Positions 39,677 to 41,844 of a DNA stretch of 64,000 nucleotides are shown here, one piece after another. The notes under the pieces were generated by a model. It was not told where the DNA came from, made no database searches, and saw only the letters and a program-made list of their open reading frames with translations. A program made the position numbers and the translations under genes. Numbering within the stretch: position 1 is the first letter of the stretch; each line of letters opens with the position of its first letter. This DNA comes from Linanthus parryae (taxonomy: Eukaryota > Streptophyta > Magnoliopsida > Ericales > Polemoniaceae), in contig JALGPY010000001.1 of assembly GCA_023055425.1 (NCBI GenBank), forward strand, positions 139,525,368 to 139,589,367. The letters are read 5' to 3'.

Positions 39677-39992
39677 CAATGCTCCTTGAAGCACGAGCCT
39701 AAACTGCACATCGCTCCTCGACGTACGAGCTTAAACTACACGTCATTCCTGTAAATAAAAAAAAAAAACAAACAAAAAAAAGGAAAAGAAAAGAAAAAAT
39801 AGTTGGTGATGGCCCACTGCATTTATGCTCCAACAAGCAACCTCCTCCTCTCCCGGGATATGTCGTGGTAGCCGAATCTCGTTCCTCCTTATAAGACACT
39901 GAACCAACAAGTCGAAGATTCAGACCATCTACAAGTTCGTCACTCGTGATAAAGATATATTGAGTTTCCCTTGTGAGTAGAGAGAGGGCACC
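39677..39992 (+). promoter_or_regulatory. Promoter-like leader of TCP-like cassette 1
   Basis: It starts just after the pol stop with paired short repeats (GCACGAGCCTAAACTGCAC, then a GTACGAGCTTAAACTACAC variant). It then has GGCCCACTGCATTTAT at 39811-39826 and a TATA-like CTTATAAGA at 39888, 104 bp before the ORF. GGCCCAC resembles the site II/class I TCP-binding core. An A-rich run lies at 39758-39800. Confidence 0.6.
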
Positions 39993-40331
39993 ATGACGGG
40001 TTCACCAGCAAGGACGCCACCCCCCTCACCATTCATATGGTCATTCGGAAGTGCATCGTCATCTCCGCTCCCGACAACGGATCGGTACCAGGGAAGTAGA
40101 TACGAAAGACCAATAAGAGATCGTCTGGTCCTTGTCAACAGACAGGGTGCGGACATCATCTTGCCGGCAAGCATCGCCGGAAGGATCCATTATATCGGTC
40201 TCAGACGAGGCCATGAATCTGATGGTCAAACATTTGAGTGGCTTTTGAGGCTGGCAGAAAATGTTTTGGATTTACATAACACTCCAACATCGACCCGGTC
40301 ACAAGCTAGGTCTCGAAGTCCATCTCCGTGA
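39993..40331 (+). CDS. TCP-like domain protein, copy 1 (112 aa), carried by the Tat element
   Basis: The N-terminus is Pro/Ser-rich (TPPPSP motif). Residues from about 45 to 95 align without gaps to class I TCP domains: RDRLVLVNRQGADIILPAS covers the basic region, then IAGRIHYIGLRRGHESDGQ and TFEWLLRLAENVLDL cover the helix-loop-helix. TCP proteins are plant transcription factors that dimerise through this helix-loop-helix and touch DNA through the basic segment. Here the basic GRRIRMP-like core reads ADIILP, so DNA contact is doubtful while dimerisation looks possible. It ends SRSPSP, as does copy 3. No TCP gene outside the element is implied. The call rests on my recollection of the TCP consensus. 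Confidence 0.82.
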   Translation: MTGSPARTPPPSPFIWSFGSASSSPLPTTDRYQGSRYERPIRDRLVLVNRQGADIILPASIAGRIHYIGLRRGHESDGQTFEWLLRLAENVLDLHNTPTSTRSQARSRSPSP

Positions 40332-40344
40332 CAAGAAGCCCCAA

Positions 40345-40648
40345 GAAAGCTCCTCGATGCACGAGCCTAAAATGCACATTACTCCTCGACGTACGAGTTT
40401 AAACTGCATGTTACTCCTGGCCCACATGAGTCAAAACTGTGACCAAAGGCGACAAAGTAATAGAATGGGATGGTCCACTGCATTTATAATCATCACGCGG
40501 TCGCTTCCTTTTCGATTCATGTCCTTGGAAAGTATCTCATCTCCTACATAAGGCCTTCAACTTGTTAACCGAAGATCCAAACTATCTTCAAGTTCCCTAC
40601 TTCAGGAAAAGATCGATTAAACTCTCTTGTGACGCAAAATAGGACACC
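40345..40648 (+). promoter_or_regulatory. Promoter-like leader of TCP-like cassette 2
   Basis: It repeats the layout of cassette 1: GCACGAGCCTAAAATGCAC / GTACGAGTTTAAACTGCAT repeats, TGGTCCACTGCATTTAT at 40471, and a TATA-like TACATAAGG near 40545, 103 bp before the ORF. Similarity to cassettes 1 and 3 is clear but substantially diverged. Confidence 0.6.
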
Positions 40649-40990
40649 ATGTCCGATTCACCCACAAGAACTGCGCCTCCTTCTCCATCATCATGGAAAT
40701 TGGGGACAACATTTCCACCTCCCGCTCCACCAACAAATCGAGACCGAATAAGAGAGCGTGAAAGACCAAGTACACGAGATCGCCAGATTGTGATCGGCCC
40801 GGGGGAAGCAGGAATTGTACTCTCTGCAAGCATCGCTAGAAGGATCCATTCCATCACTCATAGGCGAGCCCATCACTCTGACAATGAAACTATTGAGTGG
40901 CTTGTGTGCCTGGCCGAACATGTCTTGGATCTGGTCCTCCCCTCGGGATCGGCTCAACCACTAGTAAGGCCTCGAAATCTGTCTCCATGA
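40649..40990 (+). CDS. TCP-like domain protein, copy 2 (113 aa), carried by the Tat element
   Basis: Same plan as copy 1: start SDSPTRTAPPSPSSW, an Arg/Glu-rich linker, then a TCP-like block with STRDRQIVIG (basic part, mostly eroded), IVLSASIARRIHSITHRR and HHSDNETIEWLVCLAEHVLDL, split here at the loop. SDNETIEWL matches class I TCP helix 2 (SDGETIEWL) especially well. It ends RPRNLSP. The ORF is open despite heavy divergence from copies 1 and 3, which suggests constraint on the protein; a codon-substitution test would be needed. Confidence 0.82.
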   Translation: MSDSPTRTAPPSPSSWKLGTTFPPPAPPTNRDRIRERERPSTRDRQIVIGPGEAGIVLSASIARRIHSITHRRAHHSDNETIEWLVCLAEHVLDLVLPSGSAQPLVRPRNLSP

Positions 40991-41004
40991 AAACAAGCAC
41001 CAAG

Positions 41005-41317
41005 AAAGCTCCTCAATGCACGAGCCTAAACTGCACATTGCTCCTCGACGTATGAGCTTAAACTGCATGTTACTCCTGGCCCACACGAGTTAAAACTGTG
41101 ACCAAAAAGTCAAAAGCCTTAAAGCAAGGAGGGCCCGATGCATTTATGATCCAGCACGCTTCCGCTTCGTTTCCGGATCTGGTACCCACAAAAGTTGATC
41201 CTCCTCTCTATATATACAAGGCCTTCATCATATGCTGAAATCTCAAAGCACTTCCTTCGAGCTACTTGTCAAAAACGAGATAGCTTGAATCCCTTTGTCA
41301 ACACCAAATAAAACTCC
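41005..41317 (+). promoter_or_regulatory. Promoter-like leader of TCP-like cassette 3
   Basis: It has the same repeats as the other cassettes, then GGGCCCGATGCATTTATG at 41131 and the strongest TATA box of the three, CTATATATAC at 41208-41217, followed by AAGGCCTTCATC. The ORF starts about 110 bp later. GGGCCC is again a TCP/site II-like core. Confidence 0.65.
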
Positions 41318-41821
41318 ATGTCTGAGTCACCAACCAAAACTCCGCCTCCCTCACCATCTTCGTGGGCACTGGGGACATCGTCGTCATCCTCGTCGTCGTC
41401 ATCATCATCACGACCAGTGGCCGCAAGCACTCGTGCAACCTTGGTAGGTACACCAGTTGGGTCTCTCCAAGAATACCTGTCGCAACCGCCGCCTAGAAGC
41501 TCACTCCTCCCGGCGTTTCCATGGCCACACGCATTGCCGTCATCACCGGCTCCACGAGCGGATGTGACCTCAACCTCAAGAAGGATACCCGAAAGACGAA
41601 TAGGAAGAGAACGCCAAGTCCTGATTGGTAGGCAAGATGCAGACATCATTCTGCCCGCAAGCCTCGCTGCTAGAGTCCACTACATCACTCGTAGGTTGGG
41701 CCACCGATCTGACAGTCATACTATCGAATGGTTGCTGCATCAGGCCGAACGTATCACAGACTTGCCCAATTCTCCAGCATCAGTCTTGCCACCAGCTAGG
41801 CCTCGAAGCCCATCCCCGTGA
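41318..41821 (+). CDS. TCP-like domain protein, copy 3 (167 aa), carried by the Tat element
   Basis: The best-preserved copy. It starts SESPTKTPPPSPSSW like copies 1 and 2, then has a serine run encoded by TCA/TCG repeats and an extra ~50-residue linker. The TCP-like block reads RERQVLIGRQDADIILPAS, LAARVHYITRR and LGHRSDSHTIEWLLHQAE. Class I TCP proteins read AAR, TRELGHKSDGETI and WLLQQAE at these places. I count 22 identities over 50 gap-free positions against a remembered class I sequence. The arginine-rich GRRIR segment is replaced by DADII. It ends RPRSPSP. It could act as a dominant partner of host TCPs; that is inference. Confidence 0.87.
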   Translation: MSESPTKTPPPSPSSWALGTSSSSSSSSSSSRPVAASTRATLVGTPVGSLQEYLSQPPPRSSLLPAFPWPHALPSSPAPRADVTSTSRRIPERRIGRERQVLIGRQDADIILPASLAARVHYITRRLGHRSDSHTIEWLLHQAERITDLPNSPASVLPPARPRSPSP

Positions 41822-41844
41822 TGGCAAAGGCCAAGAAGTCCAAG

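Follow-up and report, generated by a model that had tools for sequence, protein, structure and literature searches.

A young Tat-type LTR retrotransposon, located in a 64,000-nucleotide stretch of Linanthus parryae DNA (the window), carries a gene related to class I TCP transcription factors, designated ORF3, which is under purifying selection, strongest in its N-terminal motif and helix pair. The gene belongs to an accessory module that recurs in a second retrotransposon lineage and is likely self-promoted, and we consider it a real possibility, if not quite an even one, that the module yields a decoy that pairs with host TCPs and blocks their DNA contact. The features of the element are as follows.

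32036..33004, forward strand: 5' LTR, 969 bp, exact match to 45409-46377
33073..39669, forward strand: gag-pol ORF, with gag, RT, RNase H, a second RNase H (RVT_3) and integrase, in that order by Pfam
39678..39751, forward strand: 74-nt direct repeat heading cassette 1 (repeat family D3)
39993..40331, forward strand: ORF1, TCP-like, 112 aa; PF03634 E 0.0029, 18.6 bits, under the cut-off
40649..40990, forward strand: ORF2, TCP-like, 113 aa; PF03634 E 5.7e-5, 24.1 bits
41077..41084, reverse strand: site II-type motif GTGGGCCA, 241 bp upstream of ORF3
41209..41216, forward strand: TATA box, 109 bp upstream of ORF3
41318..41821, forward strand: ORF3, TCP-like, 167 aa; PF03634 E 5e-9, 37.3 bits; TCP15 E 5e-9
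42209..42216, forward strand: TATA box, 53 bp upstream of ORF4
42262..42459, forward strand: ORF4, 65 aa, two hydrophobic stretches, a membrane hairpin as judged from sequence
45409..46377, forward strand: 3' LTR, 969 bp, exact match to the 5' LTR

The youth of the element is evident from the LTRs, which upon comparison within the window match end to end without a single mismatch, and from the 5-bp target duplication GCTGG that flanks it (32031-32035 and 46378-46382). The gag-pol open frame spans 32950-39669, with a first ATG at about 33073 as read by eye, and the Pfam domains of pol are found at residues 1261-1420 (RT), 1510-1613 (RNaseH), 1665-1784 (RVT_3), 1879-1932 (H2C2) and 1952-2047 (rve). 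The second RNase H thus lies between RNase H and integrase, the order described for Ogre/Retand elements (PMC6317226), placing the element in the Tat lineage. Congruent with the sequence-only reading, ORF1 to ORF3 are located between pol and the 3' LTR of this young Tat element. TRP28, which is missing from 2 of 63 clusters in a Retand survey (PMC11963269 / PMC7264820), gave no match in any of seven scanned frames, of which three are antisense. Further copies of the D3 repeat are present at 40346-40419, 41005-41078 and 41845-41918, 64-86% identical to the first, and their recurrence is a mark of the cassette having been duplicated in tandem.

All three TCP-like ORFs run from ATG to stop at the positions initially assigned, and share an SPxxTxPPSP start and an RxRxxSP end (initially noted as a TPPPSP-type start and an SPSP-type end). 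Identity to ORF1 is 47% for ORF2 and 58% for ORF3. ORF3 consists of an N-terminal MSESPTKTPPPSPSSW motif, a linker, the TCP-like domain without the basic cluster and an SPSP tail; as the linker adds some 50 residues, the gap-free alignment claimed earlier holds inside the TCP-like domain and not over the whole length. The curated cut-off of PF03634 (23 bits) is passed by ORF3 and ORF2, and not by ORF1 or the F2 protein of the second lineage (21.9 bits). Among PDB sequences, the nearest to ORF3 is the class I factor TCP15, with class II PCF6 far behind (E 0.43). The structure prediction for the TCP-like protein is strand-strand-helix-helix at low confidence (pLDDT 64), and fold searches (Foldseek, VIA-align) returned neither TCP nor any confident match. 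We infer that the element lineage captured a class I TCP gene of a host.

The TCP domain contacts DNA via basic N-terminal loops and a central strand pair (PMC10049435). The GRGRRIR arginine cluster of class I TCPs is absent in all 54 TCP-like domains compared, out of 58 open ORFs (three ORF1 copies and one ORF3 copy without the EWL/EWF anchor were omitted, and the 42 family-1 rows represent 37 distinct proteins). At the GRGRRIR position the charge is -1 to +1 in every domain, as opposed to +4 in a host class I TCP (L005), and only 0-6 of the 16 residues of the basic DNA-binding region (KDRHTKVDGRGRRIRMP) are identical in any of the 54. When all 16 residues are counted, some ORF1 and F2 copies attain a charge of +3 (host +5), and in ORF3 an arginine-rich stretch lies immediately upstream of the basic-equivalent stretch. 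Relative to the same host protein, 19-23 of 36 residues are retained by the ORF3 copies in the helix region and 1-3 of 16 in the basic region. The missing cluster indicates that the TCP-like protein is probably not a DNA-binding TCP factor, and the initial designation of the ORFs as transcription factors was not borne out. The F2 and F3 proteins retain only 10-11 of the 36 helix residues, which renders pairing with host TCPs less certain there.

We then turned to the copies in the host genome, where the best 150 candidates were scored, with open copies favoured and stops counted by eye. At least 36 near-full ORF3 copies were recovered, the window copy included, and the TCP-like gene has more than a hundred similar copies across both element kinds. 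Considering only matches covering at least 85% of an ORF, 16 of 27 ORF1, 8 of 13 ORF2 and 22 of 30 ORF3 copies are open. dN/dS of ORF3 is 0.40 by maximum likelihood; over the distinct open copies it is 0.255 by counting, with a likelihood ratio of 58.5 against dN/dS = 1. ORF1 is under weak to modest constraint (0.60 by maximum likelihood), dN/dS of ORF2 does not differ from 1, and the F2 TCP-like ORF displays no significant constraint, its ratio being indistinguishable from 1. That all three frames are open therefore does not establish that each of them matters: selection is strong on ORF3 and modest on ORF1, and on ORF2 it is not demonstrable. By region, ORF3 yielded 0.14 for the N-terminal motif, 0.18 for the helix pair, 0.32 for the linker and 0.43 for the tail, and the basic-equivalent stretch is constrained too (0.21). 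In ORF1 the helix pair (0.35) evolves more slowly than the basic-equivalent stretch (0.97) and the N-terminal motif is not slow (0.61); in F2 the motif gave 0.05 and the helix pair 0.57, without clear constraint. As a frame control, the other five frames of ORF3 contain stops in 20 of 20 copies, and the two other sense frames have pN/pS of 1.39 and 1.48. Antisense frame 1 is low at 0.33, yet as it is interrupted in every copy it was rejected as a true gene.

The sequence-only reading described the feature for a Tat element, to which it is not confined, and overlooked ORF4, the lack of the basic cluster and the recurrence of the module in another lineage. A second retrotransposon lineage, represented by families F2 and F3, also carries a TCP-like ORF and a 65-residue ORF, antisense to gag-pol and between the 5' LTR and gag. 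Here at least 150 TCP-like matches were scored, many F3 copies being nearly identical. This lineage is probably a chromovirus: F2 has an SH3_Tf2-1 match (E 1.6e-25) and a chromodomain match (PF00385, E 5.5e-4, 20.3 bits, under the cut-off of 25.1) at the integrase C-terminus, the expected place, and by eye the primer site TTGGTATCAGAGC adjoins the 5' LTR. The N-terminal motif MSESPTxTPPPSPSSW is common to the TCP-like ORFs of both lineages, while the remainder has diverged, and the synonymous distance between the lineages is saturated even though motif and domain are shared. In the ORF4 region, identity between the Tat element and F3 is 90% for non-coding and 87% for coding DNA, and beyond it the only DNA shared by the two at E 1e-5 is some 50 bp where the TCP-like ORFs start. 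Such a distribution suggests that the module was transferred between the two lineages.

For ORF4, at least 150 genome matches were scored, and it is open in 17 of 24 family-1 copies whose match spans at least 180 bp. The likeness to a circular tendon repeat protein in the PDB (E 5.9e-5, without any stretch passing by itself) was set aside as a composition match of a membrane protein, as were the Pfam rows, all under cut-off, leaving no family. No ORF4 homologues were detected in viral contigs or in the protein collection searched, which probably holds few plant proteins. ORF3 likewise lacked homologues in both, and as no plant TCP was returned from the collection either, this absence is uninformative on other species.

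ORF3 and ORF4 are likely expressed from their own promoters. TATAWA is found at -106 to -112 in 26 of 30 ORF3 copies (among the remaining four, the anchor is shifted in L019 and L035), and in those F2 and F3 elements that were read, ORF4 is preceded by an identical TTTCTATAAATAGAAGC. No strict TATA box was detected near ORF1, ORF2 or the F2/F3 TCP-like ORFs; TATATTA occurs at -86 in 9 of 11 F2 copies. The GTGGGCCA motif is also present before ORF2 (40418-40425) and ORF1 (39810-39817), so that it precedes all three cassettes, with 3 sites found for GTGGGNCM versus 0.6 expected from shuffles. Of 30 copies, 26 have GTGGGCCA within 600 bp of ORF3, which is no more than a hint, the motif having been picked after the fact. 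The site before ORF3 ranks 11 of 345 upstream 8-mers for conservation in 27 copies, a rank that is flattered since L025 and L035, which lack it, were omitted together with L019. Scans of four stretches (5' LTR, gag-pol, cassettes and tail) detected no full class I site GTGGGNCC, the LTR is free of any such motif, and the F2 and F3 ORFs have only one AGCCCA each within 600 bp.

How may these observations be reconciled? That the protein is a functionless captured gene fragment, open merely because the copies are young, agrees with the neutral ratios of ORF2 and F2 and with the near-identity of many F3 copies. For ORF3 this is disfavoured by the likelihood ratio and the frame control, and it also speaks against it that motif and domain are shared by two lineages whose synonymous distance is saturated; overall we regard it as very improbable. 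An unlikely but more substantial alternative is a DNA-binding regulator of the element with new specificity, which would bind the module or LTR and control transcription, a role that has also been suggested for TRP28 proteins in Retand elements. RHH-type domains are able to bind DNA through other residues, the basic-equivalent stretch of ORF3 is constrained, and GTGGGCCA precedes all three cassettes. Against this, the arginine cluster is missing in both lineages, the full class I site is lacking from the stretches scanned, AGCCCA stands only once near each of the F2 and F3 ORFs, two of the three ORF3 copies omitted from the ranking are without GTGGGCCA, and a host TCP could equally occupy these sites.

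Somewhat more doubtful still is an adaptor, in which the SPTxTPPPSPSSW end would bring in a further host protein, the TCP-like domain having no role beyond that of a dimerisation scaffold or of localisation. This end has proline-directed phosphorylation-type sites, is the most constrained part of ORF3 and F2, and is kept in both lineages despite divergence elsewhere, but in ORF1 it is not slow, and it has no Pfam match from which a partner could be named. The decoy reading, on the other hand, builds on a TCP relative devoid of the arginine cluster for gripping DNA. The module would comprise this protein and the 65-residue predicted membrane protein; the ORF3-type protein, likely expressed from the module's own promoter, would dimerise with host TCP factors and keep them off DNA in an Id/microProtein-like manner. 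The element might gain from a loosening of TCP-controlled growth or defence programmes, or of its own repression by the host. Several observations count against this reading: the constrained basic-equivalent stretch of ORF3 with arginines just before it, the charge of up to +3 in some ORF1 and F2 copies, the few helix residues kept in F2 and F3 and the unclear constraint on the F2 helix pair, the ORF1 motif that is not slow, the neutral ratios of ORF2 and F2, the lack of a strict TATA box near four of the TCP-like ORFs, the fold searches without TCP, and the low pN/pS of antisense frame 1. That two retrotransposon lineages trade a self-promoted module with such an Id-like class I TCP decoy at its core is conceivable, though we lean against it as a whole.

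Extra genes are common among plant LTR retrotransposons, and for most of them the function is unknown. Here, an accessory gene can be linked to a host regulator family known by name, the selection on it is measured, the missing DNA-contact cluster predicts a mechanism, and a second lineage has the module in another place and orientation; the benefit of accessory ORFs to their element thereby becomes directly testable. The additional ORFs of Retand/Tat elements (TRP28; maize Grande gene23) likewise lie between pol and the 3' LTR, and the Grande gene has its own promoter (PMC11963269; PMC7264820), but they are antisense and TRP28-type, while the TCP-like ORFs of our Tat element are sense. In the accessible part of the 63-cluster Retand survey, none of the sense ORFs in this position, considered from 600 bp upwards, is reported to have a known domain or a transmembrane region (PMC11963269 / PMC7264820), a minimum longer than any additional ORF here, so such genes could have been missed. 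Papaver Retand has two additional transmembrane ORFs that ORF4 may resemble, and TCP in the available text of that paper denotes motifs for binding in the DNA of the element and not a protein that it encodes (PMC12582370). Among the products of sunflower Tekay are non-canonical proteins without a known function, with no TCP in the portion available (PMC11728184). The open-access literature searched describes accessory ORFs of such elements, and no TCP-encoding retroelement was found there. Phalaenopsis Ty3/gypsy elements have captured and kept an AlkB-type demethylase ORF (PMC9289625), similarly a plant regulatory domain in a gypsy lineage, although AlkB is an active enzyme in one lineage, in contrast to a transcription factor-related protein without its basic cluster in two.

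Class I TCPs (TCP15 and kin) share with the present ORFs the ungapped helix-loop-helix part and the residues LGHxSDxxTIEWLLxQAE; the ORFs differ in the lack of GRGRRIR, in the N-terminus and in being retrotransposon-encoded. MicroProteins and Id-type HLH inhibitors are, as here, small and possess the dimerisation part of a transcription factor without the DNA-binding part, dimerisation being predicted in our case. To our knowledge, the known cases are host genes. Plant microProteins sequester their larger relatives (PMC6003976), and if the same applies here, the module would represent a retroelement counterpart of pathogen effectors aimed at TCP hubs, suggesting that retroelements, like viruses, exchange host-manipulating genes.

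The Tat-type LTR retrotransposon in the window encodes gag-pol in one frame, with domain matches in the order gag, RT, RNase H, second RNase H and integrase, an arrangement of the second RNase H that the accessible part of PMC6317226 describes for Ogre and Retand, Tat lineages of angiosperms. Located 3' of gag-pol, in sense orientation, are the TCP-like ORF1 (112 aa), ORF2 (113 aa) and ORF3 (167 aa), accompanied by a short further frame, ORF4.

32036-46377: Tat-type element; 969-bp LTRs of full-length identity, GCTGG duplication flanking both ends
42262-42459: ORF4; 65 residues, two hydrophobic stretches, TATA box 53 bp upstream

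A 74-nt repeat is present at the head of each of the three ORF cassettes, and the ORFs are thus most likely tandem duplication products of a ~660 bp cassette. Cassette number varies among genome copies, with ORF1 recovered in 27 and ORF2 in 13 of 30 fetched copies (at least 85% coverage). The search for further copies of the cassettes, suggested by the sequence-only reading, was productive: ORF3 matches of 80% or better that span 119 residues or more occur at a minimum of 36 places in the 1.5 Gb host assembly, counting the window copy, and in 28 of these the matched part contains no in-frame stop (counted by eye). A TRP28 ORF, carried by 61 of 63 Retand clusters in the accessible part of a published survey (PMC11963269), was not found at 42471-45408 of the element in the seven frames scanned.

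The TCP family is restricted to plants according to the portion available of PMC10049435, and a profile search of the genome recovered full-domain host TCP genes. The proposed TCP relation of the three ORFs was borne out by the PF03634 profile (E 5e-9 for ORF3, 5.7e-5 for ORF2 and 0.0029 for ORF1), while fold searches with predicted models, which were of low confidence, returned no TCP. In PDB sequence searches, TCP15 was matched at E 5e-9 with ORF3 and 2.7e-10 with a profile built from four ORFs, and the class II protein PCF6 at E 0.43 and 0.026, respectively; judged by sequence, the TCP likeness is of class I type. Among the matches listed, dense clusters of TCP-profile matches were also observed at G000:C90:8.90-9.08 Mb and G000:C1:114.35-114.79 Mb of the host assembly, most with the basic region and many with stops, probably representing decaying, tandemly multiplied TCP genes separate from the retroelement ORFs.

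The designation as transcription factors fared less well. Three host class I genes of the same genome read KDRHTKVDGRGRRIRMPA, and ORF3 at this register, ungapped, reads RERQVLIGRQDADIILPA. Across 54 of 58 open ORFs (21 ORF3, 13 ORF1, 8 ORF2 and, from the second lineage described below, 11 F2 and 1 F3; four without an alignment anchor were omitted), the seven residues at GRGRRIR carry a net charge of -1 to +1 versus +4 in the host, and all 16 residues of the stretch equivalent to the basic region -1 to +3 versus +5. The helix pair, on the other hand, retains 19-23 of 36 host residues in ORF3 copies. As class I TCP dimers grip DNA via basic N-terminal loops and a central strand pair (PMC10049435, accessible part), canonical DNA binding is likely lost with the dimer part retained.

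Selection, also anticipated, held for two of the three ORFs. Strictly open are 22/30 ORF3, 16/27 ORF1 and 8/13 ORF2 copies. Among distinct open copies, counting dN/dS was 0.255 for ORF3 (n=20), 0.556 for ORF1 (n=14), 0.71 for ORF2 (n=7) and 0.467 for F2 (n=11), with maximum-likelihood values of 0.40, 0.60, 0.76 and 0.67; in the codon-model test against 1, ORF3 (58.5) and ORF1 (8.9) depart significantly, but ORF2 (0.5) and F2 (2.5) do not. Since each copy decays neutrally once inserted, on top of a constrained ancestry, these values probably understate the constraint. The three window ORFs differ pairwise by dN/dS 0.27-0.43 at dS 0.96-1.28. The sense frame of ORF3 is the sole frame both open and slow: all five other frames contain stops in 20/20 copies, including antisense frame 1, despite its pN/pS of 0.33.

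The feature was taken to belong to a Tat element, which is correct for the window copy, but it is not exclusive to Tat. Other elements came to light through the ORF4 matches and through a group of ORF3 matches at 33-38%, with context read for F2 (L041, L051, L052), F3 (L061, L062) and the decayed F4 (L063). F2, a probable chromovirus, has 2464-bp LTRs of 99.92% identity, an initiator-Met type primer site (read by eye) and a 1568-aa gag-pol with a strong SH3_Tf2-1 match and a chromodomain match under cut-off. Its layout is 5' LTR, TCP-like ORF, ORF4 and gag, both genes of this module being antisense to gag-pol, and F3 keeps gag-pol, TCP-like ORF and ORF4 in the same order at 84% identity to F2 over 6.5 kb. 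The TCP-like ORF is open in 11/12 F2 stretches, and one or both of two flanking frames recur in all 12. A genome search starting from the F3 ORF yielded at least 150 matches, 108 of the best 150 free of stops over the matched part (counted by eye); beyond the places read, their location in elements is inferred from similarity. A further 152-aa open frame (MEIWKSRELDSDHP...), in gag-pol sense between 5' LTR and module, was seen in F2 (L041/L052) and F4 (L063). Tandem F3 copies with periods of ~9.0-9.6 kb occur at L061-L062 (C35:95.07-95.09 Mb), C1:184.23 Mb and C28:12.34 Mb, probably sharing LTRs.

Outside the module, no DNA common to F2/F3 and the window element was found (E 1e-5). Next to ORF4, however, identity between Tat and F3 reaches 90% over 183 non-coding bases (87% in ORF4); the corresponding values are 78% (80%) for Tat and F2 and 86% (82%) for F2 and F3. 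Since non-coding DNA is conserved as well as coding DNA across two element types, the comparison argues for a fairly recent exchange of the ORF4 part, and the Tat copy being nearer to F3 than F2 is fits an F3-like to Tat direction. The F2/F3 proteins share the start and architecture of ORF3 at saturated synonymous distance; the history of the TCP-like ORF is older or faster than that of the ORF4 part. ORF4 itself is open in 17/24 family-1 (window-type Tat) copies with a match of at least 180 bp, gave a likelihood ratio of 7.7 in the codon test (17 distinct sequences, F2 and F3 included), and has at least 150 genome matches, 136 of the best 150 without stop (counted by eye). It is well kept across the two lineages, more so than the TCP-like ORF.

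Regarding expression, a TATA box lies 106-112 bp upstream of ORF3 in 26/30 copies, and the TATA context of ORF4 is common to Tat, F2 and F3. A strict TATA was found neither upstream of ORF1 and ORF2 nor close to the TCP-like ORFs of F2 and F3; TATATTA occurs at -86 in 9/11 F2 copies. In the putative chromovirus, an ordinary LTR transcript could not express the antisense module genes. Each of the three cassettes is preceded by GTGGGCCA, which we take to be a site II-type TCP motif, and GTGGGNCM was found 3 times versus 0.6 expected from shuffles. The GTGGGCCA site before ORF3 lies within 600 bp in 26/30 copies, ranking 11 of 345 8-mers in conservation (27 aligned copies; two of the three omitted lack the site). 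The full class I site GTGGGNCC was not found in the 5' LTR, gag-pol, cassettes and tail. GTGGGCCA was spotted after the fact, and a stretch of 600 bp around the F2 and F3 ORFs read does not contain it, so it is only a hint. In bamboo, an interaction of host TCP20 with LTR elements has been reported (PMC12786077, accessible part).

Id proteins and plant microProteins keep partner factors off DNA by pairing. By analogy, and as the preferred reading, the TCP-like protein would act as a decoy, pairing with host class I TCPs via the retained helix pair and, devoid of the basic cluster, keeping them off DNA; expression, pairing and a gain for the element are all putative. Regional dN/dS, with few sites each, bears on this and on two rivals. 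The helix pair, which pairing would use, stands at 0.18 in ORF3, 0.35 in ORF1 and 0.57 in F2. A DNA-binding regulator with new specificity would instead draw on the basic-equivalent stretch, at 0.21 in ORF3, 0.97 in ORF1 and 1.16 in F2, and an adaptor would act via the N-terminal motif common to ORF3 and the F2/F3 proteins, at 0.14, the lowest in ORF3, 0.61 in ORF1 and 0.05 in F2.

No report of a TCP-encoding retroelement was found in the open-access literature searched, and the accessible part of a review of additional ORFs (PMC7264820) contains no TCP. The Retand survey of 617 genomes (PMC11963269), in the part available, reports antisense TRP28 ORFs and, between pol and the 3' LTR, sense ORFs without known domain or transmembrane region; TCP is not mentioned there, and as only ORFs of at least 600 bp were covered, genes of ORF1-ORF4 size could be overlooked. 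From the accessible sections of the respective papers, Papaver Retand has TCP-binding motifs and two transmembrane ORFs (PMC12582370), as opposed to the encoded TCP-like proteins here, and in active sunflower Tekay, whose non-canonical ORFs have no known function, there is no TCP (PMC11728184). The closest precedent for a host regulator captured by an element is the orchid AlkB case (PMC9289625, accessible part).
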